The notes below the pieces were generated by a model. It was not told the DNA's origin and searched no databases. It worked only from the letters and a program-made list of their open reading frames with translations. A DNA stretch of 64,000 nucleotides from Symbiodinium sp. CCMP2592 (taxonomy: Eukaryota; Sar; Dinophyceae; Suessiales; Symbiodiniaceae): NCBI GenBank assembly GCA_905221615.1, contig CAJNDT010003446.1, forward strand, positions 479,680 through 543,679, in the 5' to 3' direction. Within the stretch, counting starts at the first letter, position 1; every line of letters starts with the position of its first letter. The position numbers and the translations under genes were made by a program. Positions 3,001 to 53,500 of the stretch are shown piece after piece.

Positions 3001-6000
3001 TCAACCGTGATCAGCTCGATAGCTTCGGCCGACGCGTAGCGGAAGAATGATCTTTCGATTCCCCTCACGCACGCATTTGCTCCCTCAAGGCCACCCCAAT
3101 TCGGAAAATGACTTGGGTGTCTCATTGCAATTGTAAGAAGCCCGAGCGCCAGCTCCACCGTGTCACCCAGGAGTTCCTCCTTGGGCAAGGCTGACCCTCT
3201 GTAGCATTCTTGGCGCTCCTCCGGAGTCAAAAGCATTCTCATGAAACCAGCATAAGCGCAGTTCCCGGCATCGTAGTAGCAGATGTAGCATGTCTTGCCT
3301 TCGGAATCGTATCCCCTGTCCCATGCCAACTGTTTGGCCTTTCCCCATGCCGCGTACTCGATGGCCTGACTGGCTGTGATTCGGAGACCACCGTAGTGAG
3401 AAACCGTCTTGCCAATGTCTTCGTAGACCACTTCCGCACAAGCTTTGAGGAACTCCTTGATGTCCATGCGAGGGTCCACAAATTGAAGCCTCAGGTCATA
3501 AAGGTGCTTTGCGCAAGCCAAGGTGTACTTCTGGGACGCGACCAAGTCATTGAAGGAGCCGATTTGATGCTGCATCTTCAAGGCTGAAGTATGCGCGCAC
3601 CCAATGCAGTGTCCAGGATACCCGTTTCCGGTCGGCTTGAAGAAGGCCTGTGCGTAGCACTCAGCCAACTTCATTGCGTCACATCCAGGCAATAGAACGT
3701 TCTCCCTTTGACATAACCGGTGTTCGGGGTCGCATAGGTGTCGATCCGGAACCAGTAGTGCCTGTTGTCGTAGTAGGCTTCGGGAACGGTCATGGCGATG
3801 TCAAAATCCTGCCAGGTGACTGTGGACGATTCAGCGACCGTGTCACCCTGGGCACCCGACCTGATCTGTTGCTGCTGTTCTCCCGTAAACCATGTCTGCG
3901 AAATCCTGGTGGACGTCTTGACTTCACTCTTGTCCTCCCAAATCTCGACAAGCGACGGGTGAGCGACTGAGTCGGCGCGGACAGTTTCGTCCCATGAGCG
4001 AACTTTCGATGCCTCAACAAAGCACGTGGATACCATCTTCTCGCAGAACAGCTGCTTCTCGTAGATAGCGAAGCCCAATTTGAACCTGACCCGATTGTCC
4101 GGTGCTGGCACCTTTTCGGCTGACAGTGTATGCACGCCTGACGACGCATGTTTCATCTGGCTGTACATTCTTGACCAAAACGAAGATCCATGAATCACCA
4201 CGCATGCTCGGGCCCGCAACTCCAGTTCAATATACATTCCCAGCGCGTGGAAACCGTTGAACAGAGAAGCTTTGTGCTGAAGGTAATTGCTAGCTGCTCC
4301 AACGAACCGTAAGTCGTGATTGATGTTGACAATTGAAGGGCGCGTGGTACGCTTCCCTGCCGCAATGATAGGGTCAACGTACGTGATCTTGAGCTGTCGC
4401 TGCAAGTCAGTGCGAATTGCTGCTCCGTCTCCAACCTCACTCATCGGAAAGGACATGTTCTCGATGAGGATCGCTTGGAGAGACAGATGGTAATGCAATG
4501 TGACGGTTGCAAGCTGCTCTTCAGTCAAGCCATCCAATGTCGCATTCACAGATTCCAACGATCCTTTTGTGACTTGGAAGTTGTAGTTGGCACCTGCGGT
4601 GATCGACGGGCTCACAATGTAGACCTCGCTCCATCCATGCATGCCGAGGTTCTCTCTCACCGTGTGCGTTGATCCCCTGGTCCTTGCAACCATGTCAAAG
4701 TCCTGGACGAGGATTGTGCACTGAGAGCGCATAGTCGCGGCATCGGGTTTGCCACCCATGCCCAAACTATTGCGAAATCCATTCAGCGTGTTCATGGTGT
4801 TGATCCTTGCTTCTTCCGGAATTTCATCATTGTCGACAAGATCGCTGTCTGCCTCGATCATCACTGCCGAGGTAAGCATTGGAGGAGAAGGAAGATGCAC
4901 GCATGATACCAATGCCAATGCATGGTACAGCCGTGAATACATTCGTAACCACACCTTTGTACTCAGCTTCACGTAGACCTTCAGGTTGAGACCCTTGTCA
5001 TCATTTTGAGAGACGGAACGGATCCTTGCCAAATAGGTCACCAGTCTTCTGACGTAATGCTGAATCGGTGTGGTCCCCACGTCGTGGTTGGCCACAAACT
5101 TTGGCGTCTCATCAATGGTAGGTGGGTACTCGTCTTGATCACGGGTCGTCGTCAGCAAGATCGAGCGACAGCCCTTCTCATCGATGTTGACATAATGGTA
5201 CCAACTTTCCTGAGCGCCAGCGGGGATTGGAGCTTCCTCCCATGTCGGTTGCGATGGTTCCTCTTCCGGTTGCGAAGTCGGTTGTTGTGGAGGAGGTGCC
5301 GCAGAAGATGACGACGCCGATGCCGTTGCCTCGTCCGTCCTTGCCCTCTTTGGTCCGTGGCTAGGGGTGGCTCGAGGTCCGGCAGCGGATCCTTGCGATT
5401 GTTCCGGCGTTCTTCCATGCTCAGGGTGCACGATTCCTTCCGGTTCGAGGTTGCTTGCCGTAGGCATCGCAACTCTCCCCGTTGAGTATACCCAGCTAGG
5501 ATGCCGTTGAAGGTTGGGCGGAAATAGGCCATCATCTTGCATAAGCGGATTTGGTGCCCTCATCTGTTGGAATTCCGCTTCCCATATGCCCAATGTGGCG
5601 CGTTTGGTAGAGCAGTCGACCACGTACCCAGATTCAACTCCGCATTGATTCCAGGTGTAGCCACGGAACGCATCCGGCAATTGGAAACCGTTCTTGTCCT
5701 GAGCTGCACATACGGCATCCACATGGTGCTTGAGGAAAGCATACGTGGTGTAGTCGGAATCAGGGAGCACGTCGTTAGACCATCTGTAATGCGGGAGTCC
5801 AGTTTGTGGATCGACCCATGATACGTAGGAATGAAGCACGTGGAGACAGACACTGAACGCCTGGAGTGAGTTCATCGCAAAGGCGAGCGGATGTCCCATG
5901 CCTTGAGGCAATGTGCGCATCATCAAAGCCAGCTGGTGAACGTTGATTGGCGTAGCGCCATCGTTGCTCGCTGCGCATTCCTGGTTGTAGGTCCGAAGTC

Positions 6001-6775
6001 CATACCCAGTGTGCTTTGCGAACATGTACATCAGCTTGCACACCCTACATAACGTAGGCTCTCCCAACAAGTCGGATTGGTCAGGTGCTCTGCCTGACAT
6101 GGGCAACTTGTGGTAGTAGTCCTGATTCACCGTATACCATTGTTGAATTCTCGTGTCTGTCACGGTCTGGTAGGGCGTCTCCACGGAGTTGATGAGAACG
6201 GCGAGATTGTAGTACACGTCCGCGCTGACGATGTTCCTGGTTGCAGTGTTCAAGTCGAACCGAACTTGTTTTCTTTCTTGTTCCAGTTCAACCACAGCCA
6301 ACTTTGCATCATCGCGGATCACTTCCTCGTCCACCATAAATCTTGTGATGGCACTGAACTTCCCTTCGTAGTCAGCAACAATGTGTTTGAGACCTCCACC
6401 AAACTTGATGACCATGGCGAGTATCTCCCCATAGGGCTTGTCCATGTACTCCTCCGGGGCAGCAAATATGCAAGCCTTGAGGATTTCCCGGACTCGAATG
6501 GAAAGATCCCCTCCTGGCGACAGATTTGCACACGTGAACAGCAAGACCAACGGAGGTGCTTTGAACGCTGCCCATGTGCGAATGAGATCATTGTCGACCA
6601 CTTTGTCTTTCGTAATCTTTGGCGGGAGCGAAACGCTCTGCGACGAATCCCCAGAATACATCTCCAGGAACTTGTGGAACTTCAGAAACGTTCGCATCAT
6701 CCCACCAGATGGGAAAACTTCTTCGTGGTCCACTCCTTCGAAGGCCAGCTCGTAGGCATTGTAGCTTTCAGCCAT
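1..6775 (-). pseudogene. Copy 2 ORF3 remnant with a 1-bp frameshift, running off the left edge
   Basis: Same start and context as ORF3 of copy 1. The first 1034 codons run from 6775 to a premature stop at 3671, caused by loss of one A near 3688 (copy 1 ccagagcaat, copy 2 ccaggcaat). The shift comes just at the first cysteine cluster. From about 3690 to position 1 the original frame remains open on the far side of the shift, including the KptA/Tpt1-like segment (about 1090-1410) and the zinc-ribbon-like cluster. The last ~200 codons lie outside the window. A four-base substitution at about 2289-2292 is another copy difference. Confidence 0.9.
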
Positions 6776-6887
6776 GGCTCGGGGTTCGGTCCTTCCTCCG
6801 TAGGAGAGAAGTCCCTACACCCTACTCGACTTCACGGTTCCGGGTTCTCCGTAAGAGGCACCCTTCCCCGATCCGTCCGGTCAGACC

Positions 6888-9800
6888 TTAGTTGTTCCTT
6901 AGTTGGGGCTGTCTAATAGCCCCTTCATCAGCGTCTACACACTGATGTTGCTGCCATGCAATGTCCTCAGATTCATGTGCATCGTGACTGACACTGACAT
7001 GAGCTCGAACAAGGCTGCGAACATTCTTCGCAATCGACCGCCATGAAACATCAATGCGCTGCAACAAACTGCTCTTCGATTCATGGTCCAAGCAATCATC
7101 CAGTCTCACCATCAAACGATCCGCTTCAGGCATGTTAGAGAACATGATCCTGCGTCCACCACCATCGCCACCAGCACCAACATGGTCATCAATCTTAACC
7201 TTCGTCACTTTGCCACTTGAAACAAGAGCACGCAACTCTGGCCAAGACCAACATGAACATGAAGAAGGCATGTCAAGCGAAAAAATAGACGTCGGAAAAT
7301 TCCGCACACTTCTTCAGCAGGCGTTTGAGAGATTTCAAGATACTTCCAGGACCAGCACCTGATCGCAAAAGCGATGCCACGAATAGCACAGGTGTGCGCA
7401 GGTCATTCCGGCACGCATCCTTCATTGCACCGATAAGGCTGTCCTCATCGGCCTTAGAGCCAATCAGCTCCTTGCAAGTTATGCGAGCGCATCCCTTAGT
7501 GGACTTAGGCACGGCGTAGCCATTGCCCAAGCCACATAGGTGAACGATCATGCGGTCAGGCTTTCGTCCACCAGCCTTCGACGGCATGGCTACCAATCTC
7601 CCATCGCCCGTTGCCTGAAACTTCAAGGCTTTAAGCAATCTCCTGGAGATTTGGCTAGTCAACTCGCATTTATCAGATCGATCCTTAGCGTCCGAATCGG
7701 TCATGTGCAAATGTTTGGACGAGCACACGTCAGACGACTTAGGATGCAACGCGACGTTTGCGGCAATGTACTCCCATTCATCCTTGCAGTAGCCGAGCTA
7801 GACGGCGGTTCCGGGAGATACAGGATCCCGAAAGGTATAACGTTGCCCGTGAGTGCATCCTTGGATCTTGATGCTCTTCCACATGGCATCTTCCTGAAGT
7901 CCTTTGTACTGCTTGGTTTCCTGGACTGGTACTCGAGGAGGTACTTCGATGATGATTTGGAACCCCCATGATGCCGCTCTGCGCGCAATTCTTTGGACGA
8001 CCTCCCCCCATGGGTAGTCTGTCCGCAATTTGGCCCTTTCAGGGTTGTCAGCGATTTTCCGACTCAGCCACGAATTCTTGCCTAACATCCCTGCACCAAT
8101 GAAGATCACGGAGTTAGGGTTGATTTTCCTTGCTTCCACCACATCGAAGAGGTAGGCGCACATGGCGTCGTCAACTTCTCGCCCCATACTCAGAACATTT
8201 ACTTGCAGCCCAGGGTCATAGTGAGAGTCGGGAGCATGCTGTGCAATGCAATCCTTGCCTGGAGCATACTCATTCCACCAGTTCTCCTCATCGACCCCTA
8301 CCAATGTCCACACCGTCACTGCTTTTGGAGCATCTTTGATAGTGATACGGTACTTCCACCGGCTGTAAGGATTCTTGTAGGTATGGACCAACCCTCCACC
8401 GTGGTCGAGGAATTGGATCACCAGGCCCTCCTTGGGTTTGTTTTCGGCGAAATTGACCACGTGAGGCACAATTGCTCCATCATATCCTTGATATTCCCTT
8501 TTCTGTTCAGCCGCATCATGCCATACATCCTCGTACACTGACGACCATTGGTCATAACCGAATTGAGAGGATTGACTTTTGGACTGGCCGTTGAAACAAA
8601 GAGGCAATGTAAAGCCCTGGTACCCCCCATGGATGGCACGCGCCAGTGTGACAACCACCGCTCGCCATTTGGCGGGCAGGGCGCGCACATAAGACTGGCC
8701 CAAAGGCGGTTCAGGAGGAGGCAAAAACGGCGGCGCAAGGACGTCCGCAATAGCGGCTGGGCGCAAATGCCCCCGTACAGGATGGTACTGAAACACAGCA
8801 CGCTCCACATAGCGGTCGAACTTGCCCGGTGTATCACGGATAGCAGCACGATCCTCCATCTGGTGCCACTGCCCCTCGCGAAGAATCCAAGTCGACCGAA
8901 GGTAACGACCAGGCGGCAACGCGGAAGGCGGCCCCCGCAACATGCGCGGGAACTTGACAACCAGGATGGGGTCCACACTGTCATGTTCTTGCAAGCCTTC
9001 CTTACTCGACAATCCAGCGCGAGACAACACCTGAGGGAGGATCGGCGTCTGCGTGTAAGGAAAACAAGGCACCTCGCTCTTGAACGAGTAATGTTGTTGC
9101 CCCTTCTCATCCGTGCTTTGGGTATGAGTAGGGCGCATCAGATCCATAATCTCTTGGGAGCCAATGAGAGCCGGCGGAAAAATGTTGATGAGCTGACACG
9201 CATGTGTCCAGGACACAGAATCCTTGAACGACTTGGTGTGTATGTCCGCTGACATCTTGGCAGTGACCTCATAGGCAAGAGAAACGTCACCTTCCTGAAA
9301 GATAGAATGCATCCATCCAATGCAGATGCCGTGGGTACGTTCCAAATGACGCATAGTCGGATTCTTGCCCGTGCGAATCACCCCGATCATGGTCTGGTTG
9401 TCGTCGTAGAAGACGAAGTTGGGGTCTTGCCCCCCAAGCGGCTGCCACAACGTGATAGCAGGCAATCCAAGACGTGACATGGCAAAGTCGGCCGCGACAA
9501 TCTCGGCCTCAGGTGTGGAATGACTCAAGCACCCCTGCCTTTTGCTAAGTTCCGCCAAGGGAAATCTTGTGTGAGAACCTTGAATGTGCAAGTGAGCACC
9601 GGAGGTAGATTTCAAACTTTCTCCACAACCTGCATAGTCCGCATCTGCAAACAGCCCGATGGACGAGTCCTCCAAGGAGTTCCCGAACCATCCAATCATC
9701 ATGTGATGTTTGGACTGGTGCACATAGGCCATGAGATGATGAAGAAGAGCATCCTCCTTCTTGGTCCATTTCGTGATCTTGCGTGCGAGATTGTTGATAC

Positions 9801-11400
9801 TGCGCAGAAGATCAAAGCGGCAAATGCGCGCGGCATAAAGCAATTTCATGAGAATGCTTGCTGCCTGCGGAGCAAGTGCGCCGCGATTAGCCTCGTTGAG
9901 CTCCTCTTCCTCTGGCGCCTTGGGAATAGGTGGAGGCGGAACAAGCCGACCGTCCTTATCAACAGGCATGGTGTGTCCACACCACGTGCATCGATGGCTT
10001 TTACCTGACTGTGCCGGAGCGCGAGCTGGGTGATTCTTAGTCTCCTCAGCCGGACTCGGCGATGGTACCGTCTTGAATTTGGTCGGATCGAACCCAGTCA
10101 CGTCGCAGTACTTCTTGACTGTCATGTCCAGGTACGTCTCCATGTCGTAGGTAACGGTCTGCACCTTCGTTTTGTCATGCAACGTTGCCTCGCCCTTGGA
10201 GATGCGACAACCCAGATACAAACCTAGTGGCGTCTCTTCTTCCAATCGGAGTTCTTGGCGCAGCATGTCCCAGCCCTTGGGTAGATTCTCTTTGGGTCCT
10301 GCCATCTTGAGATCATCCACGTAGATGACAAGTAAGAGCTTCATTTGCGGGTGGAAATACAATGAGGGCCATTCGTCGCCAATTGGCTTGAATCCTACTT
10401 TCTGTACCGCGGTGTGGCAATGTTGTTCCCACATGGTTCCTGCGTCAGGATGTCCGTACAGAGCTTTGATCAGGCGGCACACAGGCCTACGGAATTTATG
10501 CCGTTTCGCAGATGGATGCCAGGCTTCATCAGGCAGTTCAACCCAACATGGAGTTCCCGATAGTCTCGCCTGAATGTATGCTTGGATAGCATCCGCCATC
10601 TGGACATCGTTGCCAGGAAGGCATCCGTAATAATCTGCCCACCGTGAGGCGTCAAACGTAGCCGGGGATTTCCCCCAGTCCTGAAACAATGCGGCTTCCA
10701 TGTTCTGGTCTTTGACCTGATCACCGAGTAGTACACCTCGCCCTTTGAACTTCCTGGCAGGATCGTCCTCTTTGAGCTGATAGTTCTTCTCGTATATCAG
10801 TCCATGTACTCGCGCCATATGTACTTTCTCACCTTTCTTCTTTGCCTCAGCGACGACGTCGTCATATTCACGCGTAGTTGAGAAATCAACCACCTCTTGG
10901 TCCCACAATCCCTTCCATTCTTTCATGAAAGCTTCCATGGCCTTGGGGTTGTTGACCATCTCCTTGCGTGTGACGGGTCGAGTGACCATGGCATTGAAGC
11001 ATGATCCTCCTGCCTGATTCTTTTCCCGATGTACGTTTCTGTGAGAAGTCGTACACGGCATAGATGGAATCCAGTTGTCACCCATGACCATGTGTGCCGG
11101 AACAGCCGGCACGACGTCTGCCAAGAATTGTTCTTGTGTGTATTGATCCACATAGGATTGTGCCCAGGACCATCCATCGTCGTCATCAATGGGCACGTTG
11201 AGTTGCAGATCGATTTCTTCACATGGAACAATCTTGGGAAAGATCATGTTGTCCAAAATCTTGGTGACTATTTTCTTCCCTATCACAGCCTTCTTCCGGT
11301 CTTTCTTGGCAACTCGAGCTTTGTCTCGCTTTTCTTTCTTGTGCGCTGCCTTCTTCTCCGCTTCACTCATTTTCTTCCATGCTTCCGGAGAATAGGAATG
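6888..11400 (-). pseudogene. Copy 2 ORF2 remnant: reverse transcriptase, RNase H and C-terminal extension, broken
   Basis: Equivalent to ORF2 of copy 1 from about residue 1704 to the end. It is open from the gap through reverse transcriptase (YVDD near 10315-10325) and RNase H to 7798. There a Glu codon has become TAG (plus-strand cta at 7798-7800, ctc in copy 1). Beyond it the frame reopens to an A-run at 7280-7285, which has six A where copy 1 has five, shifting the frame. The last part, ending at the normal stop at 6888, is in a third frame. The missing N-terminal half is cut by the N gap. The catalytic RT and RNase H residues remain, but the C-terminal extension is lost from any translation product. 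Confidence 0.9.
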
Positions 11401-11500
11401 NNNNNNNNNNNNNNNNNNNNNNNNNNNNNNNNNNNNNNNNNNNNNNNNNNNNNNNNNNNNNNNNNNNNNNNNNNNNNNNNNNNNNNNNNNNNNNNNNNNN
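11401..11500. other. Assembly gap (100 N)
   Basis: Exactly 100 N, a conventional placeholder for unknown length. The left flank equals copy 1 position 24123 and the right flank equals 30714. If copy 2 were complete, about 6.6 kb would be missing here. Confidence 0.95.
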
Positions 11501-11727
11501 GATTGCTCAGGATAGAAGACACTTATAGCACTTAGCTATTGGCATTGACTTGAGCCAAACGTTGCGTGGGCGGTCACATAGAAAGGTAAAGACGAGGGAC
11601 GCGTAGCGTGCCCCCTTAGAGTCGAGGGACGCGTAGCGTGCCCCCTTCTCTTGCACTTTACACGGTCTTGCTCACAGCTCTTATAGTGACACCTTAGAAC
11701 TTGACAAGGCATCGCAGTCCGTTCGCA
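11501..11727 (-). repeat. Partial LTR: 3' LTR of copy 1, perhaps shared as 5' LTR of copy 2
   Basis: These 227 bases align without indels to 30714-30940, with three mismatches (11540, 11593 and 11671 region). The LTR starts TGCGAACG at 11727, directly after a six-G run on the sense strand, as expected for a 3' LTR. The remaining ~204 bp would lie in the N gap. Because copy 2 continues in the same orientation beyond the gap, this could be a single LTR shared by two tandem elements, or two LTRs collapsed in assembly. Confidence 0.85.
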
Positions 11728-11733
11728 CCCCCC
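11728..11733 (-). promoter_or_regulatory. Polypurine tract of copy 1
   Basis: On the sense (minus) strand the sequence reads CATGGGGGG immediately before the LTR start TGCGAACG. A purine run abutting the 3' LTR is the standard primer site for plus-strand DNA synthesis. It is short, but its placement is exact, and it independently supports the LTR boundary at 11727. Confidence 0.7.
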
Positions 11734-11991
11734 ATGATTTGCGTCTCCGACGCTGCTCACCCGGAAGATGGCACGATAGGACAACAGAAAATGTTCCGCC
11801 GCAACGTTGACATTGAAAATCAGAGCTTTGCATCCCAATTAGAAACGTTGTGACACTCATCTACGTCAGTAACGATCCCCTGAAATGGCAACCGAATCAG
11901 GCGTCACCGAAGAAAGAAGCATTCGCGATGGCATTCCATGGGCGAAGCTCAGAGGTCACGAACTGATAGGCGAGGAAGACCAAGCGTTGAT
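11734..11991 (-). other. 3' untranslated region of copy 1
   Basis: 258 bases between the ORF3 stop and the polypurine tract. No further reading frame on the element strand and no clear hairpin terminator was noticed. Confidence 0.6.
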
Positions 11992-14900
11992 TCATCTCCA
12001 TCTTCGAGTGGTCGCAGGATCGCGGTCCCAGGGCCGGAGGTTTTCCTCTGGATACTGTTCCCTTTGCTTTCCTTTGTCCTTGCCTTTGTTTCGGCCTTTG
12101 CCGGCGGTGTAGTCATAGTAGGTGTTGGCGTTCCAGCCCCCATGCTGTTCACCTCCGGCTCTCTCACGCCCCTTTGAAGGTCCCTTGGCCGAAGAAGCGC
12201 TTGCACGTTCCTCCGGAGTGACAGGCGTGTCCAGGATGGAAGTACCACCTGGAGGGAGATAGTCAGCGGCCGAAATGTGGTGTAGGGCTTCAGTACGCTT
12301 GGTCGTCGGGTTTTGCTGTCTCTCAGCCTTGGATCTGTTCAATCTGTCCATGAAATGCGCAGGCATTTGCACATTGTAGTCCACCAGCAATCCGATGGTC
12401 TGGACTGAATGATCGGAATGAGTCAGCAGGATACCGACGGGGTCGATGTACAAGAAGTCCACCGGTCCAGTTGGTGTTGGTCGTAGCACTGAGAATTGTT
12501 GGTGTCCCGTCACCATCGGAATCACCTCGCACAGGACGTTCAGGCAACAAAAGTGCATAGCCTTCACATCTTCATCCCTGTTGCTCTTCAAGTACGTAGT
12601 AGGGTTGAAGTTGTCCCTGCCAGTTCCCATCATGTTGGCTCCCCGTGTAATCAACGAAAGCATCTGATTCGTCCGGAAGCGCTTCAAAGTGTAAGTCCCG
12701 TTGGGATCATACTGCTTGAAGTTCTCAGGTTCCTTGGCAAAGCGAATGATCTCCTCATCAGTCACATCCCTGCTCACACCAGTCTCTCTGTCCACTACAG
12801 CCAATGATCCCCATTTTCCAAGCACATCATAGCGTTGGCCAAGTGCGAAGTTCTCTTTCATCTGAAACAACGGCATAGTAGCCCACTTCGCGAAGCCTGA
12901 CCAAGCCTTGTAGATGGTCCTGCATACCACGAAAGCCATATACGAAAGAGCGACCATGTTGGCGTCAATGCAATGGGCATTTCGCTTCCCTGAGTAGTAG
13001 GATGGCTGCATGGCGGTACGTGCAAGTTGTAGCTCAGGATCGATGTTCAAAGACTGGCGGGTGATGGTAGATGGTTCTGGGATTTCCTCAGGTTCCGCAA
13101 CGGTCTCTACCTCCATGGCTTCCTGCTCCTCTTCGGGCGCCTCAGGCACTGCTGCTGCCGCGGCTTCCATCGTCTGAGCAATGAAGTCACTGGGGATCTC
13201 CGTAGGAGTCTCCCGTTGTGGAGAACCTTGGTAATATCCGCTAGAAACGAACTGTGACCAGCAAGACGTGCATCGGGAGAAACATGCTGGAACGATGTTG
13301 TAGCATGCCGGGCACACCCTCATTCTCCTTCCATCCTCGTCTCTGCGTAGGTCTTCGGGTCGCCAAGTCTTGATGACAAACTTGATCCCTTTGTCCATGT
13401 AGTGATGCCGAACCGTGTTCTCCCTGTGGGACTCCAGGACAGTCGTAAGGTCTCGGATGATCTGCTCCTTGCTGGTGTCGTGGGGTCCAGGAGGCATTTC
13501 GCAAAGCAATTCCATGATCTTGCTCGGCGTTCGGTATCTCTCGAACTCAGGGAGCAATGGTGATGCATTGTAGTCCAACACCAGCTCTTTCTCCAATCGT
13601 TCATCGTAGATCTTTTCCACCAGAGCGAAAGAGTGTGTATCTTGAGGATCCGGGACGCAAAACCATACCTCCTTGACGAAATGGAACGGTATCGTCCGGC
13701 CAACGATCATGATGCCGCTGTCTGTGATACGTCCATCTTCTCGTGCAAGGTCCTGCGATGGGACATGGAGGACCGCCAGTGGCATGTGCTTGGCATCTAG
13801 TCCATGCACCCGCATCTTGGTCGTCGCGTTCCGGTGATCGAACGGTGCAAACACCCCCCAATAGCTGTGGAGTCTGCCGCCTTGGTTGCCTCGAAATTGG
13901 CGCCTGTGGTCGAAGTCCCCGTCGGGGTCCTCCGAACCAGGCATGATGCCTTGCGTGACAATGGAATCCAAGTTGCGACATGCTGTAGCGTGGAACGCTC
14001 CTCCGAGACGTTGCAAGAGGGTCATGGATGGAGATATTGCGAACCTGTTCTTGTCCAACTGAAGCAAATTGTTCTGGGGATCCGAGTGCGCAGAGTGACC
14101 ACTTGTAGCCCGAACTGCCCATGGCTTCACCCAGCCGTTGCAAACGTTCAGGTACCTCTGGTTGTGCCGGCAACGATCATTGTTCTGGATCTCCGTGATC
14201 TGGTCAGGAACCGATACCAACATGTTCGAACCTGCGGATCCAAGAGTTTCCACGCCGGGGTCCTTCACTCTCACTCCCAGGAACTGCAACCGAATCTTTG
14301 CCTTGTGGCGTTTCGTGGCTGCGAGCATGTTCCCTTGGAACAATAGCTGAAGTCTTTCATTGTACACTCTCTTCCTCTGTTGCTCATCGGACCATGAGAC
14401 CGCTTCGGTGATGCGTCTGCTTTCATGTGTCCATAGTTGCTCATGCCTCACCAAGTCTTCGATCAGCACCCACCCTCCTTCATCACATCGAATGACGCTG
14501 CTGAATGCTACCTGGCACCTGTTGTCAAGCCATTCCGAGCCTGGGCGCCTGGCGATTCTGTGACGTAGGTCAGATTGGATGCATGATAGCGCCCAATCCG
14601 CGTTTAGTCTGCGCTGACGGGTTATGTTGCGAAGGACAACTTCGTTCACGATGTCCCATCGATTGTTGATGAAGCTTGCACCCTTGGTTGGGATCAGGTC
14701 TAGAATCCCGCACCGGATTGGCCTTCCGCCGCCGATGCATTCATAGCCTGCATTGGTGTAGCCCTGAGTGGTATCGTCAAAAGCAAAGCTAGGACGGTCT
14801 CCTCGTTGAGGTAGGCGTCGGTCGCGATGGTCCGAAAGCTGCTCAATGAGGTCCACCACCCGCTGGCTATTCTCTGGTCCCATGTCCTGCAGTGGTACGC

Positions 14901-17900
14901 CACAAGCATCATGTAGGCCCCGACGGTTCTCCACATCCGTGCAGAGATTGTGTTTGTTCTCATAACGGATCAAAACCACATCACCCCGTACGGCTTCGCC
15001 TCCGCGTCGCGGTCGGGCTTTGGCCTTGGGTCGTCGGTCCGAGGATGCAACACTCACATGGTCTGTGGTGTCCACGTCCATTGGCTCAGCCTCTTGTGGA
15101 GGTACTCGACGTGGATATCGAAGAAGGCTTTCCTTGATGATCTGGATGCCTCGAAGTACCAGATCCCGGGTCGCAGAATTTTCCGTGCAATTGGACAGAG
15201 TGTGTAGATCACTGCCACAAGCGATACAGAACGTGAGGCGGTCACTTCCGACCGACATTTCGCCTTGAGCGAGCACTCCCACATAGTCCTGAAGCTGTGC
15301 GACAAATCCTTCACGAATCGCCTGCCTGGGATCAGGGCCTTCTGCACCTTGTTCTTCTTCGCGTTGCGCATCCACATCTACATCCTGTGCAGGTATTGGT
15401 GGAGCAACGGAGAACCCTGGATCGTCCGTGACGTTGTCAGCGGCCTGTGTCTCGTCGGTTCTCGCAATCTCTACAGGGTAGATATCACCATCGACGATCA
15501 CTGTGAAATCAATCACGAGGTCAGCGGACATGTTGTTGACGATCTCAGCGACTGCTTCATTCTTCTTGGGCGGTGTCCTTTTGCGTGGGGAGTCAACCGT
15601 GATCAGCTCGATAGCTTCGGCCGACGCGTAGCGGAAGAATGATCTTTCGATTCCCCTCACGCACGCATTTGCTCCCTCAAGGCCACCCCAATTCGGAAAA
15701 TGACTTGGGTGTCTCATTGCAATTGTAAGAAGCCCGAGCGCCAGCTCCACCGTGTCACCCAGGAGTTCCTCCTTGGGCAAGGCTGACCCTCTGTAGCATT
15801 CTTGGCGCTCTTCCGGAGTCAAAAGCATTCTCATGAAACCAGCATAAGCGCAGTTCCCGGCATCGTAGTAGCAGATGTAGCATGTCTTGCCTTCGGAATC
15901 GTATCCCCTGTCCCATGCCAACGGTTTGGCCTTTCCCCATGCCGCGTACTCGATGGCCTGACTGGCTGTGATTCGGAGACCACCGTAGTGAGAAACCGTC
16001 TTGCCAATGTCTTCGTAGACCACTTCCGCACAAGCTTTGAGGAACTCCTTGATGTCCATGCGAGGGTCCACAAATTGAAGCCTCAGGTCATAAAGGTGCT
16101 TTGCGCAAGCCAAGGTGTACTTCTGGGACGCGACCAAGTCATTGAAGGAGCCGATTTGATGCTGCATCTTCAAGGCTGAAGTATGCGCGCACCCAATGCA
16201 GTGTCCAGGATACCCGTTTCCGGTCGGCTTGAAGAAGGCCTGTGCGTAGCACTCAGCCAACTTCATTGCGTCACATCCAGAGCAATAGAACGTTCTCCCT
16301 TTGACATAACCGGTGTTCGGGGTCGCATAGGTGTCGATCCGGAACCAGTAGTGCCTGTTGTCGTAGTAGGCTTCGGGAACGGTCATGGCGATGTCAAAAT
16401 CCTGCCAGGTGACTGTGGACGATTCAGCGACCGTGTCACCCTGGGCACCCGACCTGATCTGTTGCTGCTGTTCTCCCGTAAACCATGTCTGCGAAATCCT
16501 GGTGGACGTCTTGACTTCACTCTTGTCCTCCCAAATCTCGACAAGCGACGGGTGAGCGACTGAGTCGGCGCGGACAGTTTCGTCCCATGAGCGAACTTTC
16601 GATGCCTCAACAAAGCACGTGGATACCATCTTCTCGCAGAACAGCTGCTTCTCGTAGATAGCGAAGCCCAATTTGAACCTGACCCGATTGTCCGGTGCTG
16701 GCACCTTTTCGGCTGACAGTGTATGCACGCCTGACGACGCATGTTTCATCTGGCTGTACATTCTTGACCAAAACGAAGATCCATGAATCACCACGCATGC
16801 TCGGGCCCGCAACTCCAGTTCAATGTACATTCCCAGCGCGTGGAAACCGTTGAACAGAGAAGCTTTGTGCTGAAGGTAATTGCTAGCTGCTCCAACGAAC
16901 CGTAAGTCGTGATTGATGTTGACAATTGGAGGGCGCGTGGTACGCTTCCCTGCCGCAATGATAGGGTCAACGTACGTGATCTTGAGCTGTCGCTGCAAGT
17001 CAGTGCGAATTGCTGCTCCGTCTCCAACCTCACTCATCGGAAAGGACATGTTCTCGATGAGGATCGCTTGGAGAGACAGATGGTAATGCAATGTGACGGT
17101 TGCAAGCTGCTCTTCAGTCAAGCCATCCAATGTCGCATTCACAGATTCCAACGATCCTTTTGTGACTTGGAAGTTGTAGTTGGCACCTGCGGTGATCGAC
17201 GGGCTCACAATGTAGACCTCGCTCCATCCATGCATGCCGAGGTTCTCTCTCACCGTGTGCGTTGATCCCCTGGTCCTTGCAACCATGTCAAAGTCCTGGA
17301 CGAGGATTGTGCACTGAGAGCGCATAGTCGCGGCATCGGGTTTGCCACCCATGCCCAAACTATTGCGAAATCCATTCAGCGTGTTCATGGTGTTGATCCT
17401 TGCTTCTTCCGGAATTTCATCATTGTCGACAAGATCGCTGTCTGCCTCGATCATCACTGCCGAGGTAAGCATTGGAGGAGAAGGAAGATGCACGCATGAT
17501 ACCAATGCCAATGCATGGTACAGCCGTGAATACATTCGTAACCACACCTTTGTACTCAGCTTCACGTAGACCTTCAGGTTGAGACCCTTGTCATCATTTT
17601 GAGAGACGGAACGGATCCTTGCCAAATAGGTCACCAGTCTTCTGACGTAATGCTGAATCGGTGTGGTCCCCACGTCGTGGTTGGCCACAAACTTTGGCGT
17701 CTCATCAATGGTAGGTGGGTACTCGTCTTGATCACGGGTCGTCGTCAGCAAGATCGAGCGACAGCCCTTCTCATCGATGTTGACATAATGGTACCAACTT
17801 TCCTGAGCGCCAGCGGGGATTGGAGCTTCCTCCCATGTCGGTTGCGATGGTTCCTCTTCCGGTTGCGAAGGCGGTTGTTGTGGAGGAGGTGCCGCAGAAG

Positions 17901-19368
17901 ATGACGACGCCGATGCCGTTGCCTCGTCCGTCCTTGCCCTCTTTGGTCCGTGGCTAGGGGTGGCTCGAGGTCCGGCAGCGGATCCTTGCGATTGTTCCGG
18001 CGTTCTTCCATGCTCAGGGTGCACGATTCCTTCCGGTTCGAGGTTGCTTGCCGTAGGCATCGCAACTCTCCCCGTTGAGTATACCCAGCTAGGATGCCGT
18101 TGAAGGTTGGGCGGAAATAGGCCATCATCTTGCATAAGCGGATTTGGTGCCCTCATCTGTTGGAATTCCGCTTCCCATATGCCCAATGTGGCGCGTTTGG
18201 TAGAGCAGTCGACCACGTACCCAGATTCAACTCCGCATTGATTCCAGGTGTAGCCACGGAACGCATCCGGCAATTGGAAACCGTTCTTGTCCTGAGCTGC
18301 ACATACTGCATCCACATGGTGCTTGAGGAAAGCATACGTGGTGTAGTCGGAATCAGGGAGCACGTCGTTAGACCATCTGTAATGCGGGAGTCCAGTTTGT
18401 GGATCGACCCATGATACGTAGGAATGAAGCACGTGGAGACAGACACTGAACGCCTGGAGTGAGTTCATCGCAAAGGCGAGCGGATGTCCCATGCCTTGAG
18501 GCAATGTGCGCATCATCAAAGCCAGCTGGTGAACGTTGATTGGCGTAGCGCCATCGTTGCTCGTTGCGCATTCCTGGTTGTAGGTCCGAAGTCCATACCC
18601 AGTGTGCTTTGCGAACATGTACATCAGCTTGCACACCCTACATAACGTAGGCTCTCCCAACAAGTCGGATTGGTCAGGTGCTCTGCCTGACATGGGCAAC
18701 TTGTGGTAGTAGTCCTGATTCACCGTATACCATTGTTGAATTCTCGTGTCTGTCACGGTCTGGTAGGGCGTCTCCACGGAGTTGATGAGAACGGCGAGAT
18801 TGTAGTACACGTCCGCGCTGACGATGTTCCTGGTCGCAGTGTTCAAGTCGAACCGAACTTGTTTTCTTTCTTGTTCCAGTTCAACCACAGCCAACTTTGC
18901 ATCATCGCGGATCACTTCCTCGTCCACCATAAATCTTGTGATGGCACTGAACTTCCCTTCGTAGTCAGCAACAATGTGTTTGAGACCTCCACCAAACTTG
19001 ATGACCATGGCGAGTATCTCCCCATAGGGCTTGTCCATGTACTCCTCCGGGGCAGCAAATATGCAAGCCTTGAGGATTTCCCGGACTCGAATGGAAAGAT
19101 CCCCTCCTGGCGACAGATTTGCACACGTGAACAGCAAGACCAACGGAGGTGCTTTGAAAGCTGCCCATGTGCGAATGAGATCATTGTCGACCACTTTGTC
19201 TTTCGTAATCTTTGGCGGGAGCGAAACGCTCTGCGACGAATCCCCAGAATACATCTCCAGGAACTTGTGGAACTTCAGAAACGTCCGCAGCATCCCACCA
19301 GATGGGAAAACTTCTTCGTGGTCCACTCCTTCGAAGGCCAGCTCGTAGGCATTGTAGCTTTCAGCCAT
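11992..19368 (-). CDS. ORF3: 2458-aa retrotransposon protein of unknown function with a KptA/Tpt1-like segment
   Basis: Third frame, starting 111 nt after the ORF2 stop in a strong context (GAGCCATGGCTG). Residues 1-430 are globular and unrecognised. Residues 440-530 are Pro/Ser/Gln-rich with a basic GPKRARTD patch. Residues 540-1020 look globular. Cysteine clusters that could bind zinc occur near 1030-1055 (FYCSGC, HCIGC), 1085-1110 (CYICYY) and 1378-1390 (FCIACGSDLHTLSNC). Residues about 1788-1905 resemble the RNA 2'-phosphotransferase/ADP-ribosyltransferase fold: FHATACRNLDSIVTQGIMPG, then a GRLHSYWGVFAPFDHRN stretch and a PLAVLHV strand. A zinc-ribbon-like CPACYNIVPACFSRCTSC lies near 2018-2036. 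The C-terminus is Gly/Lys/Arg-rich. No signal peptide or clear membrane segment argues against an envelope protein. Copy 2 keeps most of the same frame. Function is unknown; an RNA-modifying role is inference. Confidence 0.85.
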   Translation of the reverse strand: MAESYNAYELAFEGVDHEEVFPSGGMLRTFLKFHKFLEMYSGDSSQSVSLPPKITKDKVVDNDLIRTWAAFKAPPLVLLFTCANLSPGGDLSIRVREILKACIFAAPEEYMDKPYGEILAMVIKFGGGLKHIVADYEGKFSAITRFMVDEEVIRDDAKLAVVELEQERKQVRFDLNTATRNIVSADVYYNLAVLINSVETPYQTVTDTRIQQWYTVNQDYYHKLPMSGRAPDQSDLLGEPTLCRVCKLMYMFAKHTGYGLRTYNQECATSNDGATPINVHQLALMMRTLPQGMGHPLAFAMNSLQAFSVCLHVLHSYVSWVDPQTGLPHYRWSNDVLPDSDYTTYAFLKHHVDAVCAAQDKNGFQLPDAFRGYTWNQCGVESGYVVDCSTKRATLGIWEAEFQQMRAPNPLMQDDGLFPPNLQRHPSWVYSTGRVAMPTASNLEPEGIVHPEHGRTPEQSQGSAAGPRATPSHGPKRARTDEATASASSSSAAPPPQQPPSQPEEEPSQPTWEEAPIPAGAQESWYHYVNIDEKGCRSILLTTTRDQDEYPPTIDETPKFVANHDVGTTPIQHYVRRLVTYLARIRSVSQNDDKGLNLKVYVKLSTKVWLRMYSRLYHALALVSCVHLPSPPMLTSAVMIEADSDLVDNDEIPEEARINTMNTLNGFRNSLGMGGKPDAATMRSQCTILVQDFDMVARTRGSTHTVRENLGMHGWSEVYIVSPSITAGANYNFQVTKGSLESVNATLDGLTEEQLATVTLHYHLSLQAILIENMSFPMSEVGDGAAIRTDLQRQLKITYVDPIIAAGKRTTRPPIVNINHDLRFVGAASNYLQHKASLFNGFHALGMYIELELRARACVVIHGSSFWSRMYSQMKHASSGVHTLSAEKVPAPDNRVRFKLGFAIYEKQLFCEKMVSTCFVEASKVRSWDETVRADSVAHPSLVEIWEDKSEVKTSTRISQTWFTGEQQQQIRSGAQGDTVAESSTVTWQDFDIAMTVPEAYYDNRHYWFRIDTYATPNTGYVKGRTFYCSGCDAMKLAECYAQAFFKPTGNGYPGHCIGCAHTSALKMQHQIGSFNDLVASQKYTLACAKHLYDLRLQFVDPRMDIKEFLKACAEVVYEDIGKTVSHYGGLRITASQAIEYAAWGKAKPLAWDRGYDSEGKTCYICYYDAGNCAYAGFMRMLLTPEERQECYRGSALPKEELLGDTVELALGLLTIAMRHPSHFPNWGGLEGANACVRGIERSFFRYASAEAIELITVDSPRKRTPPKKNEAVAEIVNNMSADLVIDFTVIVDGDIYPVEIARTDETQAADNVTDDPGFSVAPPIPAQDVDVDAQREEEQGAEGPDPRQAIREGFVAQLQDYVGVLAQGEMSVGSDRLTFCIACGSDLHTLSNCTENSATRDLVLRGIQIIKESLLRYPRRVPPQEAEPMDVDTTDHVSVASSDRRPKAKARPRRGGEAVRGDVVLIRYENKHNLCTDVENRRGLHDACGVPLQDMGPENSQRVVDLIEQLSDHRDRRLPQRGDRPSFAFDDTTQGYTNAGYECIGGGRPIRCGILDLIPTKGASFINNRWDIVNEVVLRNITRQRRLNADWALSCIQSDLRHRIARRPGSEWLDNRCQVAFSSVIRCDEGGWVLIEDLVRHEQLWTHESRRITEAVSWSDEQQRKRVYNERLQLLFQGNMLAATKRHKAKIRLQFLGVRVKDPGVETLGSAGSNMLVSVPDQITEIQNNDRCRHNQRYLNVCNGWVKPWAVRATSGHSAHSDPQNNLLQLDKNRFAISPSMTLLQRLGGAFHATACRNLDSIVTQGIMPGSEDPDGDFDHRRQFRGNQGGRLHSYWGVFAPFDHRNATTKMRVHGLDAKHMPLAVLHVPSQDLAREDGRITDSGIMIVGRTIPFHFVKEVWFCVPDPQDTHSFALVEKIYDERLEKELVLDYNASPLLPEFERYRTPSKIMELLCEMPPGPHDTSKEQIIRDLTTVLESHRENTVRHHYMDKGIKFVIKTWRPEDLRRDEDGRRMRVCPACYNIVPACFSRCTSCWSQFVSSGYYQGSPQRETPTEIPSDFIAQTMEAAAAAVPEAPEEEQEAMEVETVAEPEEIPEPSTITRQSLNIDPELQLARTAMQPSYYSGKRNAHCIDANMVALSYMAFVVCRTIYKAWSGFAKWATMPLFQMKENFALGQRYDVLGKWGSLAVVDRETGVSRDVTDEEIIRFAKEPENFKQYDPNGTYTLKRFRTNQMLSLITRGANMMGTGRDNFNPTTYLKSNRDEDVKAMHFCCLNVLCEVIPMVTGHQQFSVLRPTPTGPVDFLYIDPVGILLTHSDHSVQTIGLLVDYNVQMPAHFMDRLNRSKAERQQNPTTKRTEALHHISAADYLPPGGTSILDTPVTPEERASASSAKGPSKGRERAGGEQHGGWNANTYYDYTAGKGRNKGKDKGKQREQYPEENLRPWDRDPATTRRWR
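13680..14005 (-). other. KptA/Tpt1-like ADP-ribosyltransferase-fold segment within ORF3
   Basis: About residues 1788-1905 of ORF3. In KptA/Tpt1 the domain opens with a His-Gly-Thr motif followed by an Ile and a 'Gly-Leu' turn, then an Arg-x-His-Val-His-Phe strand. Here the matching elements are FHATACRNLDSI, QGIMPG and GRLHSYWGVFAPF, with later strands PLAVLHVP and RTIPFHFVKEVWF. HAT in place of HGT is seen in other dinoflagellate members as I recall them. Tpt1 removes the 2'-phosphate left at RNA ligation junctions using NAD+, and some members ADP-ribosylate RNA ends. Assignment is by motif only. Confidence 0.5.
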
Positions 19369-19479: not shown

Positions 19480-22400
19480 TTAGTTGTTCCTTAGTTGGGG
19501 CTGTCTAATAGCCCCTTCATCAGCGTCTACACACTGATGTTGCTGCCATGCAATGTCCTCAGATTCATGTGCATCGTGACTGACACTGACATGAGCTCGA
19601 ACAAGGCTGCGAACATTCCTCGCAATCGACCGCCATGAAACATCAATGCGCTGCGACAAACTGCTCTTCGACTCATGGTCCAAGCAATCATCCAGTCTCA
19701 CCATCAAACGATCCGCTTCAGGCATGTTAGAGAACATGATCCTGCGTCCACCACCATCGCCACCAGCACCAACATGGTCATCAATCTTAACCTTCGTCAC
19801 TTTGCCACTTGAAACAAGAGCATGCAACTCTGGCCAAGACCAACATGAACATGAAGAAGGCATGTCAAGCGAAAAATAGACGTCGGAAAATTCCGCACAC
19901 TTCTTCAGCAGGCGTTTGAGAGATTTCAAGATACTTCCAGGACCAGCACCTGATCGCAAAAGCGATGCCACGAATAGCACAGGTGTGCGCAGGTCATTCC
20001 GGCACGCATCCTTCATTGCACCGATAAGGCTGTCCTCATCGGCCTTAGAGCCAATTAGCTCCTTGCAAGTTATGCGAGCGCATGATCGCAAAAGCGATGC
20101 CACGAATAGCACAGGTGTGCGCAGGTCATTCCGGCACGCATCCTTCATTGCACCGATAAGGCTGTCCTCATCGGCTTTAGAGCCAATCAGCTCCTTGCAA
20201 GTTATGCGAGCGCATCCCTTAGTGGACTTAGGCACGGCGTAGCCATTGCCCAAGCCACATAGGTCAACGATCATGCGGTCAGGCTTTCGTCCACCAGCCT
20301 TCGACGGCATGGCTACCAATCTCCCATCGCCCGTTGCCTGAAATTTCAAGGCTTTAAGCAATCTCCTGGAGATTTGGCTAGTCAACTCGCATTTATCGGA
20401 TCGATCCTTAGCGTCCGAATCGGTCATGTGCAAATGTTTGGACGAGCACACGTCAGACGACTTAGGATGCAACGCGACGTTTGCGGCAATGTACTCCCAT
20501 TCATCCTTGCAGTAGCCGAGCTCGACGGCGGTTCCGGGAGATACAGGATCCCGAAAGGTATAACGTTGCCCGTGAGTGCATCCTTGGATCTTGATGCTCT
20601 TCCACATGGCATCTTCCTGAAGTCCCTTGTACTGCTTGGTTTCCTGGACTGGTACTCGAGGAGGTACTTCGATGATGATTTGGAACCCCCATGATGCCGC
20701 TCTGCGCGCAATTCTTTGGACGACCTCCCCCCATGGGTAGTCTGTCCGCAATTTGGCCCTTTCAGGGTTGTCAGCGATTTTCCGACTCAGCCACGAATTC
20801 TTGCCTAACACCCCTGCACCAATGAAGATCACGGAGTTAGGGTTGTTTTTCCTTGCTTCCACCACATCGAAGAGGTAGGCGCACATGGCGTCGTCAACTT
20901 CTCGCCCCATACTCAGAACATTTACTTGCAGCCCAGGGTCATAGTGAGAATCGGGAGCATGCTGTGCAATGCAATCCTTGCCTGGAGCATACTCATTCCA
21001 CCAGTTCTCCTCATCGACCCCTACCAATGTCCACACCGTCACTGCTTTTGGAGCATCTTTGATAGTGATACGGTACTTCCACCGGCTGTAAGGATTCTTG
21101 TAGGTATGGACCAACCCTCCACCGTGGTCGAGGAATTGGATCACCAGGCCCTCCTTGGGTTTGTTTTCGGCGAAATTGACCACGTGAGGCACAATTGCTC
21201 CATTGTATCCTTGATATTCCCTTTTCTGTTCAGCCGCATCATGCCATACATCCTCGTACACTGACGACCAGTGGTCATAACCGAATTGAGAGGCTTGACT
21301 TTTGGACTGTCCGTTGAAACAAAGAGGCAATGTAAAGCCCTGGTACCCCCCATGGATGGCACGCGCCAGTGTGACAACCACCGCTCGCCATTTGGCGGGC
21401 AGGGCGCGCACATAAGACTGGCCCAAAGGCGGTTCAGGAGGAGGCAAAAACGGCGGCGCAAGGACGTCCGCGATAGCTGCGGGGCGCAAATGCCCCCGGA
21501 CCGGATGGTACTGAAACACAGCACGCTCCACATAGCGGTCGAACTTGCCCGGTTGATCAAGGATAGCAGCACGATCCTCCATCTGGTGCCACTGCCCTTC
21601 ACGAAGAATCCAAGTCGACCGAAGGTAACGACCAGGCGGCAACGCGGAAGGCGGCCCCCGCAACATGCGCGGGAACTTGACAACCAGGATGGGGTCCACA
21701 CTGTCATGTTCTTGCAAGCCTTCCTTACTCGACAATCCAGCGCGATACAACACCTGAGGGAGGATCGGCGTCTGCGTGTAAGGAAAACAAGGCACCTCGC
21801 TCTTGAACGAGTAGTGCTGTTGCCCCTTCTCATCCGTACTTTGGGTATGAGTAGGGCGCATCAGATCCATAATCTCTTGGGAGCCAATGAGAGCCGGCGG
21901 AAAAATGTTGATGAGCTGACACGCATGTGTCCAGGACACAGAATCCTTGAACGACTTGGTGTGTATGTCCGCGGACATCTTGGCAGTGACCTCATAGGCA
22001 AGAGAAACGTAACCTTCCTGAAAGATAGAATGCATCCAACCAATGCAGATGCCGTGGGTACGTTCCAAGTGACGCATAGTCGGATTCTTGCCCGTGCGAA
22101 TCACCCCGATCATGGTCTGGTTGTCGTCGTAGAAGACGAAGTTGGGGTCTTGCCCCCCAAGCTGCTGCCACAACGTGATAGCAGGCAATCCAAGACGTGA
22201 CATGGCAAAGTCGGCCGCGACAATCTCGGCCTCAGGTGTGGAATGACTCAAGCACCCCTGCCTTTTGCTAAGTCCCGCCAAGGGAAATCTTGTATGAGAA
22301 CCTTGAATGTGCAAATGAGCACCGGAGGTAGATTTCAAACTTTCTCCACAACCTGCATAGTCCGCATCTGCAAACAGCCCGATGGACGAGTCCTCCAAGG

Positions 22401-25400
22401 AGTTCCCGACCCATCCAATCATCATGTGATGTTTGGACTGGTGCACATAGGCCATGAGATGATGAAGAAGAGCATCCTCCTTCTTGGTCCATTTCGTGAT
22501 CTTGCGTGCGAGATTGTTGATACTGCGCAGAAGATCAAAGCGGCAAATGCGCGCGGCATAAAGCAATTTCATGAGAATGCTTGCTGCCTGCGGAGCAAGT
22601 GCGCCGCGATTAGCCTCGTTGATCTCCTCTTCCTCTGGCGCCTTGGGAATAGGTGGAGGCGGAACAAGCCGACCGTCCTTATCAACAGGCATGGTGTGTC
22701 CACACCACGTGCATCGATGGCTTTTACCTGACTGTGCCGGAGCGCGAGCTGGGTGATTCTTAGTCTCCTCAGCCGGACTCGGCGATGGTACCGTCTTGAA
22801 TTTTGTCGGATCGAACCCAGTCACGTCGCAGTACTTCTTGACTGTCATGTCCAGGTACGTCTCCATGTCGTAGGTAACGGTCTGCACCTTCGTTTTGTCA
22901 TGCAACGTTGCCTCGCCCTTGGAGATGCGACAACCCAGATACAAACCTAGTGGCGTTTCTTCTTCCAATCGGAGTTCTTGGCGCAGCATGTCCCAGCCCT
23001 TGGGTAGATTCTCTTTGGGTCCTGCCATCTTGAGATCATCCACGTAGATGACAAGTAAGAGCTTCATTTGCGGGTGGAAATACAATGAGGGCCATTCGTC
23101 GCCAATTGGCTTGAATCCTACTTTCTGTACCGCGGTGTGGCAATGTTGTTCCCACATGGTTCCTGCGTCAGGATGTCCGTACAGAGCTTTGATCAGGCGG
23201 CACACAGGCCTACGGAATTTATGCCGTTTCGCAGATGGATGCCAGGCTTCATCAGGCAGTTCAACCCAACATGGAGTTCCCGATAGTCTCGCCTGAATGT
23301 ATGCTTGGATAGCATCCGCCATCTGGACATCGTTGCCAGGAAGGCATCCGTAATAATCTGCCCACCGTGAGGCGTCAAACGTAGCCGGGGAATTCCCCAA
23401 ATCCTGAAACAATGCGGCTTCCATGTTCTGGTCTTTGACCTGATCACCGAGTAGTACACCTCGCCCTTTGAACTTCCTGGCAGGATCGTCCTCTTTGAGC
23501 TGATAGTTCTTCTCGTATATCAGTCCATGTACTCGCGCCATATGTACTTTCTCACCTTTCTTCTTTGCCTCAGCGACGACGTCGTCATATTCACGCGTAG
23601 TTGAGAAATCAAACACCTCTTGGTCCCACAATCCCTTCCATTCTTTCATGAAAGCTTCCATGGCCTTGGGGTTGTTGACCATCTCCTTGCGTGTGACGGG
23701 TCGAGTGACCATGGCATTGAAGCATGATCCTCCTGCCTGATTCTTTTCCCGATGTACGTTTCTGTGAGAAGTCGTACACGGCATAGACGGAATCCAGTTG
23801 TCATCCATGACCATGTGTGCCGGAACAGCCGGCACGACGTCCGCCAAGAATTGTTCTTGTGTGTATTGATCCACATAGGATTGTGCCCAGGACCATCCAT
23901 CGTCGTCATCAATGGGCACGTTGAGTTGCAGATCGATTTCTTCACATGGAACAATCTTGGGAAAGATCATGTTGTCCAAAATCTTGGTGACTATCTTCTT
24001 CCCTATCACAGCCTTCTTCCGGTCTTTCTTGGCAACTCGAGCTTTGTCTCGTTTTTCCTTCTTGTACGCTGCCTTCTTCTCCGCTTCACTCATTTTCTTC
24101 CATGCTTCCGGAGAATAGGAATGGATAGGTCGCCGTGTAGGAAGTGTTCGTCGACCATCACTTCGGATCTTGTACGGAACTCCCCTTTTGTCGATCTTGC
24201 AGGCTTCACCATCGTCGGTGAGATATACAATGCCGTCCCCTTTCTTCCCCGTACTCCAATGTTCAATCTCCTCGGGAGCCAACTTCTTTTCTTTCAAGAT
24301 CTTGATAATCTCTCCAGGTTCTTCGATGTCTCCTTCGGGGATGAGTCTACCGGTTGGACCGACTTCGCGGGGCGATCGTCGATCTTTTCCAGTGACCTTT
24401 GGTTCAGAAGGAGGCGGTGCTGCACGTAGACCTAGTTCTTCGTCTAGTTCTTCGAGTCTTTTGTCTCCTATAGCATCAATAGCTTCATGTTCTGCTGACT
24501 TGAAGACTTCGCCGGACGGCTCCGTCTCTATGTCAGATGGATCTATGTCCTGTAAGTCGGGATCTTCTCCGGGATCCGGTGGAGGAAGAAGACCATCTTG
24601 ATCATCATCATCCCCGTTGCCACCATTTCCTCCAGGCGGACCGTCATCCCCGTCATCGACGTCTTTTATCTCCTTGCCAGCAAGGTCAACGTTGTCCCTT
24701 AGTCCCTCAATGGTTGAGTTCATCCTCTCGTACTCGGCTTTCAGGGGAAACGTTATCTCCTCTGGGAAGTAGATAACTTCTGTCTCGTACGGTCTCATCA
24801 ACTTCCTGGGAACAGATGCGTCCATTGACAAGTTCGCATTGGCAAATTCCTTCATGTCCCACACGCGATACTTCTTGGACCATCCTTGACCAGCAGTGAT
24901 GATGTATCCGGCGAAAATGCCTGGGATCCCCTTTGGATCGAACTTGTTGCCATATGTCTTCGGCCTTGTATCCGTAGGCTTGAAGAAGACTTTGGCCCCA
25001 AAGGGTATGGCTTTTCCCTCGAAGTCCTTTCCAGTCATACGTTTCCATGCTGAATCACCATCGCCCTCCACGTCTTCGATGTTGAGGTTCTGCATCACGC
25101 AATTCAGCGCAAAAGACCAGTATTGGGCGGGTAATCCGGCGTGTAGCATGGATGCTGCGACTGTGTTGATCACTTCTTGATTTGACCGTTCAGCGAGTGA
25201 ATTGTTACTGGGTTTCCCTGGAAGGGAATGATCTATCACGATCTTCAACTGCGCCATAGCTGAATCGAACTCTGGTGCTTCATCACTATACGCCATATGA
25301 ATCTTGCGTCTTCCCATTAGGCGTCTGATGGCCATGACGACCTCGTCAGTGCTCCTTGAAGCCGTGGGAATCGCTGCGATCATTTTGGTGGCGATGTCTC

Positions 25401-30445: not shown

Positions 30446-30495
30446 TGTGGTCGTAGTAGATCAAGTAGTCGTTGCTGTAGAAAGGCAGAGCCGCG

Positions 30496-30772: not shown

Positions 30773-30806
30773 CGTTGCGTGGGCGGTCACATAGAAAGGT
30801 AAAGAT

Positions 30807-53150: not shown

Positions 53151-53500
<350 letters not shown>

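Follow-up and report, generated by a model that had tools for sequence, protein, structure and literature searches.

The stretch of DNA analysed here (the window) comprises 64,000 nucleotides from Symbiodinium sp. CCMP2592, positions 479,680 to 543,679 of contig CAJNDT010003446.1 (searched as G000:C3446:479680-543679). Its minus strand carries a Ty1/copia-type retrotransposon with long terminal repeats (LTRs) and, besides Gag and Pol, a large accessory open reading frame (ORF) referred to as ORF3. The following features were identified in the window.

30510..30940, minus strand: 5' LTR, 431 bp, TGCG...CGCA
30493..30509, minus strand: putative primer binding site GGTTATCAGCCGTACGC, adjoining the LTR and the same in six of six other elements
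29153..30445, minus strand: Gag part, 430 aa, in a frame that differs from that of Pol in the window copy
19480..29232, minus strand: copia Pol (protease, integrase, reverse transcriptase, RNase H and a tail of about 800 aa), RNase H being assigned by eye
11992..19368, minus strand: ORF3, accessory protein of 2458 aa, with an ATG start and no internal stop
11728..11739, minus strand: polypurine tract adjoining the 3' LTR, ending in CATGGGGGG at this place in 16 of 16 copies inspected
11501..11727, minus strand: first 227 bp of the 3' LTR, ended by an assembly gap, 98.7% identical to the 5' LTR
11401..11500, no strand: 100-N assembly gap between two copies
1..11400, minus strand: second copy, 5'-truncated, its ORF3 with one 1-nt deletion

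Read along the minus strand, the order is 5' LTR, conserved leader, Gag, Pol, ORF3, polypurine tract and 3' LTR. ORF3 lies between Pol and the 3' LTR, inside an LTR-bounded element, and Pol and Gag are upstream of it on the same strand. The domain order of Pol is that of copia, with matches of mixed strength: RVT_2 (residues 2007-2105) exceeds the Pfam cut-off, the aspartic protease (968-1015) and SH3_retrovirus (1411-1461) matches are both under it, and the integrase region (1228-1359) gives a weak IS481 match. An earlier sequence-only reading had described a copia-type element whose large ORF is fully open and begins in a strong ATG context (GCC-ATG-G), and these points stand. It had also counted a third ORF. 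This is correct for the window copy, in which the Gag and Pol frames differ. Among 146 reverse transcriptase matches, 27 lie in a single open frame of 3632-3669 aa and 119 in shorter frames; Gag-Pol is thus one ORF where unbroken, and ORF3 is then the second. Read-through from Pol was considered for ORF3 and rejected, with two stops between them in the window and a different frame in seven of seven other copies.

The genome searched comprises 1,098,105,373 bases in 5383 contigs. A total of 19 ORF3 places were scored out of 3217 first-look candidates, all of them open and 98-100% identical. These copies are the best-scoring ones, ranked by ORF3 score, and the ranking favours intact ORF3 and is not bias-free. 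The complete unbroken frame of 2496 aa was found in 17 of the 18 other copies fetched, more than chance would give, with L011 running into N; ORF3 of the window copy falls short of these 17 by 38 aa. The 431-bp 3' LTR begins 268 nt past the ORF3 stop in 16 of the 18 fetched copies, the exceptions being L010 (contig end) and L011. Homologues were not found mainly away from copia Pol, a pattern that would have spoken against a function in the element: the Pol tail lies immediately upstream of ORF3 in all seven copies having 1.5 kb upstream (over no more than 232 nt in L005), and in Symbiodinium KB8 one gene model extends across Pol into ORF3. The ORF3 homologues bearing a name are Symbiodinium proteins. 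The 146 reverse transcriptase matches, scored from 2782 candidates, are all 100% identical in protein. Such a match lies 3.03-3.06 kb upstream of ORF3 in six of 18 copies; the listed matches are 12-18 kb away in C136, C18 and C370, and none is listed for the other nine, possibly owing to the scoring limit. The six with a match at 3.03-3.06 kb were followed to both ends; they measure 19,669-19,703 bp and have two LTRs each, with zero to six differences over 431 positions between the paired LTRs (one pair with five and a 1-nt gap). Target duplications of 5 bp were found in five of the six, that of C931 (L029) sitting in a repeat where it could be due to chance, and none in C3 (L032/L016).

Copy 2 (window 1-11400) is 98.7-99.5% identical to copy 1, and its ORF3, of which 2257 codons could be compared within the window, stays in frame apart from the 1-nt deletion at codon 1030, much as the sequence-only reading had put it. 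The view of the two copies as certain neighbours was rejected, since the 100-N gap at 11401-11500 lies between them.

Purifying selection acts on ORF3 in the set of copies analysed. Across 18 score-ranked copies, the count was 254 synonymous and 99 non-synonymous changes, none of them creating a stop, which gives a dN/dS ratio (omega) of 0.14; by favouring intact frames, the score ranking could have lowered this value somewhat. L011, with a frame running into N, was excluded from these counts. By part, omega is 0.10 for the helical N-domain, 0.07 for the SGNH-like part, 0.14 for the zinc/helical part, 0.23 for KptA and 0.15 for the C-terminal part; the zinc ribbon has 0.03, from 12 and 1 changes, and the linker 431-510 has 0.55, from just 3 and 4. 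The two window copies yield, for ORF3, an omega of 0.21-0.24 from 18 and 12 changes; the portion of Pol that both contain yields 0.23-0.28 from 30 and 23 changes plus one stop. The values for ORF3 are far from 1 in both comparisons. Together with the linkage to copia Pol, they support the earlier suggestion of a large accessory protein kept by selection.

The domains predicted in ORF3 are distributed as follows.

18109..19341, minus strand: N-terminal helical domain, residues 10-420, most 10-residue blocks with an AlphaFold2 predicted local distance difference test score (pLDDT) of 57-89
16714..17328, minus strand: SGNH/GDSL-hydrolase-like fold, residues 681-885
15187..15228, minus strand: CCHC zinc knuckle, residues 1381-1394, pattern in five of six covering rows of alignment A1 (7 rows)
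13603..14613, minus strand: Tpt1/KptA domain, both lobes, residues 1586-1922, from Pfam PF01885, predicted fold and hhalign
14560..14565, minus strand: catalytic R1602-H1603 (LRH motif), in 24 of 24 covering rows, of 30
14290..14292, minus strand: catalytic R1693 (KxR motif), in 29 of 29 covering rows, of 30
13873..13875, minus strand: catalytic R1832 (GRxH motif), in 19 of 19 covering rows, of 30
13261..13314, minus strand: zinc-ribbon-like CxxC...CxxC, residues 2019-2036, in five of five covering rows of A1 (7 rows)

ORF3 keeps the whole catalytic tetrad and, as modelled, the Tpt1 fold. The predicted structure contains the RNA lobe and the NAD lobe of KptA, and residues 1513-1866 match PF01885 at 30.6 bits against a cut-off of 26 bits. 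The Arg-His-Arg-Arg tetrad (R1602, H1603, R1693, R1832) is invariant across the covering rows, R1832 being located by motif outside the Pfam-aligned part. Alignment A2 holds 22 of the 27 hits, and A4 holds 25 of the 27, leaving out P0007 and P0011. The function, given as unknown in the sequence-only reading, is partly resolved by this domain. For the rest of ORF3, the N-terminal helical domain gave no significant fold match, nor did the viral fold library return anything for the N half at E <= 0.001. Six further pieces matched no Pfam family, and ORF3 matched no NCBIfam family. ORF3 alone against PDB sequences gave four weak, unrelated chains (best E 0.0088), and against viral contigs 11 pattern stretches in one search and six in another, with no relative among them. 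The zinc knuckle of P0010 is without the last Cys, and the tail of ORF3 is Lys/Gly-rich.

We consider that there is about an even chance that ORF3 is an integral, selected gene of this element of about 19.7 kb, encoding a multi-domain RNA-handling protein with a divergent Tpt1/KptA enzymatic core. Its zinc knuckles and helical domain would bring the protein into the RNA-protein particle of the element, and the KptA domain, by its predicted activity, would use NAD+ to clear the RNA of the element or of its primer of 2'-phosphates. Phosphates of this kind arise once metal-independent RNases have cut RNA that is then opened or resealed, and their removal would provide reverse transcriptase with a readable template or an extendable 3'-OH. 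Tpt1 acts on splice junctions with a 2'-phosphate (PMC6333775), and a review ties KptA to the mending of RNA that metal-independent nucleases have cleaved, in phages and, in rare cases, in the polyproteins of RNA viruses (PMC9503650). Tpt1 is essential to fungal tRNA splicing, but neither E. coli nor mouse shows a phenotype when it is deleted (PMC6333775). In its most specific version, this reading would have KptA heal a cut tRNA primer, since the leader directly behind the 5' LTR, GGTTATCAGCC..., is conserved, has no TGG and looks like a primer site for a half tRNA. A 3'-OH is required on cut tRNA primers, and KptA could contribute to making it. A half tRNA-Ile primer is reported for the plant copia lineage Bianca (PMC6317226).

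Several results weigh against this reading. Over the whole of ORF3, PF01885 scores 24.2 bits, under the Pfam cut-off. Just six of 26 family members match the KptA profile at E <= 1, and in the profile search of PDB sequences Tpt1 came top at E 0.32, with the next, unrelated chain at E 0.37. The HGT motif, an NAD contact, is HAT in the ORF3 family, with H in 20 of 22 and T in 22 of 22 covering rows and the G replaced. Mean AlphaFold confidence is low (pLDDT 55.1 and 49.4, predicted template modelling score 0.40 and 0.31). The omega of KptA is higher than that of the SGNH-like part, and so KptA need not be the most constrained function. Among the six elements followed to both ends, the full Gag-Pol frame surrounds the reverse transcriptase in C931 alone and is shorter in the other five, so that most of the six seem incapable of autonomous movement; an intact ORF3 thus occurs alongside a Pol that is often broken, but the elements were chosen by ORF3 score. 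As for the primer tRNA, the CTGATAACC pattern has one match in the genome, with no tRNA by ARAGORN or Rfam; the 17-mer GCGTACGGCTAATAACC has none; and the CTAATAA pattern has six against seven for the reversed control, with no tRNA by ARAGORN. A paper on small RNAs of a diatom (PMC4247016) proved irrelevant to the primer. As the primer tRNA was not found, the half-tRNA primer stays hypothetical, and its Ile type is only a resemblance.

The main catalytic rival keeps KptA active and makes it a capping enzyme, adding ADP-ribose onto 5'-phosphate ends of element RNA or cDNA, which would shield these ends or conceal them from the host. Tpt1/KptA enzymes do ADP-ribosylate 5'-phosphate ends of RNA and single-stranded DNA (PMC8883491), and the fold and tetrad kept in ORF3 fit this activity as well; however, the sequence gives no preference for 5' ends over 2'-phosphates, and the phosphate-linked DNA products are so far in vitro only according to the same review. 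We regard capping as unlikely. Similar doubt attaches to a mainly structural ORF3, a Gag- or ORF1-like particle protein whose SGNH-like and KptA folds bind RNA or membrane without catalysis. The SGNH-like part has a lower omega than the N-domain, KptA and C-terminal parts, its first strand, read by eye as TILVQDFDM, seems to be without the GDS serine, and zinc knuckles are present. Esterase ORF1s occur in long interspersed nuclear elements (LINEs), and those of non-LTR elements have been proposed to act in ribonucleoprotein assembly and on membranes (PMC3905857). A purely structural KptA, however, is not expected to retain four catalytic residues in every covering row.

An envelope-like ORF3, on the model put forward for the sirevirus 3' ORF, is extremely improbable. 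It would occupy the same place between Pol and the 3' LTR, where 74% of SIRE elements have an extra ORF (PMC6317226), but the recognised folds are of intracellular RNA-enzyme and hydrolase types and stand beside zinc knuckles and the Lys/Gly-rich tail. Very unlikely, too, is a passenger, that is, a captured host sequence drifting without function. The extra ORFs of bdelloid LTR elements offer a parallel, showing no significant departure from neutrality (PMC5408684). For ORF3 this possibility is already largely refuted, and was rejected on the omega over 18 score-ranked copies, the lack of stops among them and the complete frames of 17 of the 18 copies fetched; moreover, P0006 is 75% identical to ORF3 along its entire length, and 52-73% of this length is covered in the alignments of P0007-P0010.

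KptA is also encoded elsewhere in this genome. The family search, in which 150 of 1550 candidates were scored, found 152 matches, and those listed are all above the Pfam cut-off at 92-178 bits, far stronger than that of ORF3. The loci fall in at least two repeat families, of each of which only one or a few loci were read, and many are in frames of 665 aa. L045, of the 665-aa type, has a C-terminal KptA (137 bits) preceded by a PARP match below the cut-off. L041, L043 and L044 are mutually related (64-91% over aligned parts) and belong to another family, whose frames measure some 430-1535 aa. The identity of L041, L043, L044 and L045 to E. coli KptA is 28-32%. On C890 (314972, 325078, 335184), C5312, C459 and C980, neighbouring KptA loci of the 665-aa type are spaced by about 10.1-10.6 kb, which would fit tandem units of this size. 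It is tentatively conceivable, though improbable on present evidence, that LTR retrotransposons of symbiotic dinoflagellates captured NAD+-dependent RNA repair, with a particle KptA healing the 2'-phosphate on a cut half-tRNA primer or resealed genomic RNA and thereby letting reverse transcription go ahead, and KptA traded as a weapon across several repeat families in a contest over RNA cleavage and repair.

Some further features of the window were recorded. The tail of Pol extends about 800 aa past RNase H (window 19480-21795) and is in parts SGNH-like by eye; its residues 2481-2951 match no Pfam family above the cut-off and one weakly below it. A profile comparison of this tail with ORF3 is invalid, as P0007 is present in both alignments. 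A tandem duplication of about 132 nt lies in the Pol tail of the window copy (19872-20215). Arrays of a 9-bp unit are found at 30874-31268 and 53167-53496, and a tandem array with a 61-bp period at 44186-45289. The 9-bp array at 30874-31268 abuts the element at its 5' end, a position that would fit insertion of the element into this array.

Retroelements with enzyme-type extra ORFs are already known, and KptA/Tpt1 as such an enzyme appears to be new: no report of it in a retroelement was found in the open-access literature, judged by titles. SIRE-lineage Ty1/copia elements share the copia-type Pol, an extra ORF between Pol and the 3' LTR and 5-bp target duplications, but their extra ORFs are highly heterogeneous (PMC6317226), whereas the present element is about 19.7 kb long and encodes an extra protein of about 2496 aa with enzyme-like domains. 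LTR elements of bdelloid rotifers likewise have an enzyme-type ORF3, either a GDSL esterase, with the SGNH fold that a part of our ORF3 may share, or a DEDDy exonuclease; their ORF3s do not depart significantly from neutrality, against an omega of about 0.14 for ours, and 'Phosphotransferase' is absent from the available text (PMC5408684). The Tpt1/KptA/TRPT1 RNA 2'-phosphotransferases share the two-lobe fold and the tetrad (PMC6333775), but the ORF3 domain is embedded in a protein of about 2500 aa, has HAT in place of HGT and, compared with E. coli KptA, has about 49 more residues between the KxR and RAxxGHS motifs. KptA in RNA-virus polyproteins and some DNA viruses is likewise carried by a mobile or viral replicon, but these are viruses, and the words 'retrotransposon', 'retro-transcribing' and 'dinoflagellate' do not occur in the available part of that review (PMC9503650). 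In the same algal lineage, Symbiodinium LINE and DIRS elements have captured another nucleic-acid enzyme, DNA methyltransferase; these are other element classes, and the Copia superfamily is there without the methyltransferase domain (PMC5890265).

A selected KptA in an abundant retroelement points to a concrete and testable RNA target, namely the reverse-transcribed RNA or its primer. It would lengthen the list of enzymes carried by LTR elements, and would suggest that retroelements in dinoflagellates are truly impeded by RNA that is cleaved or 2'-phosphorylated.
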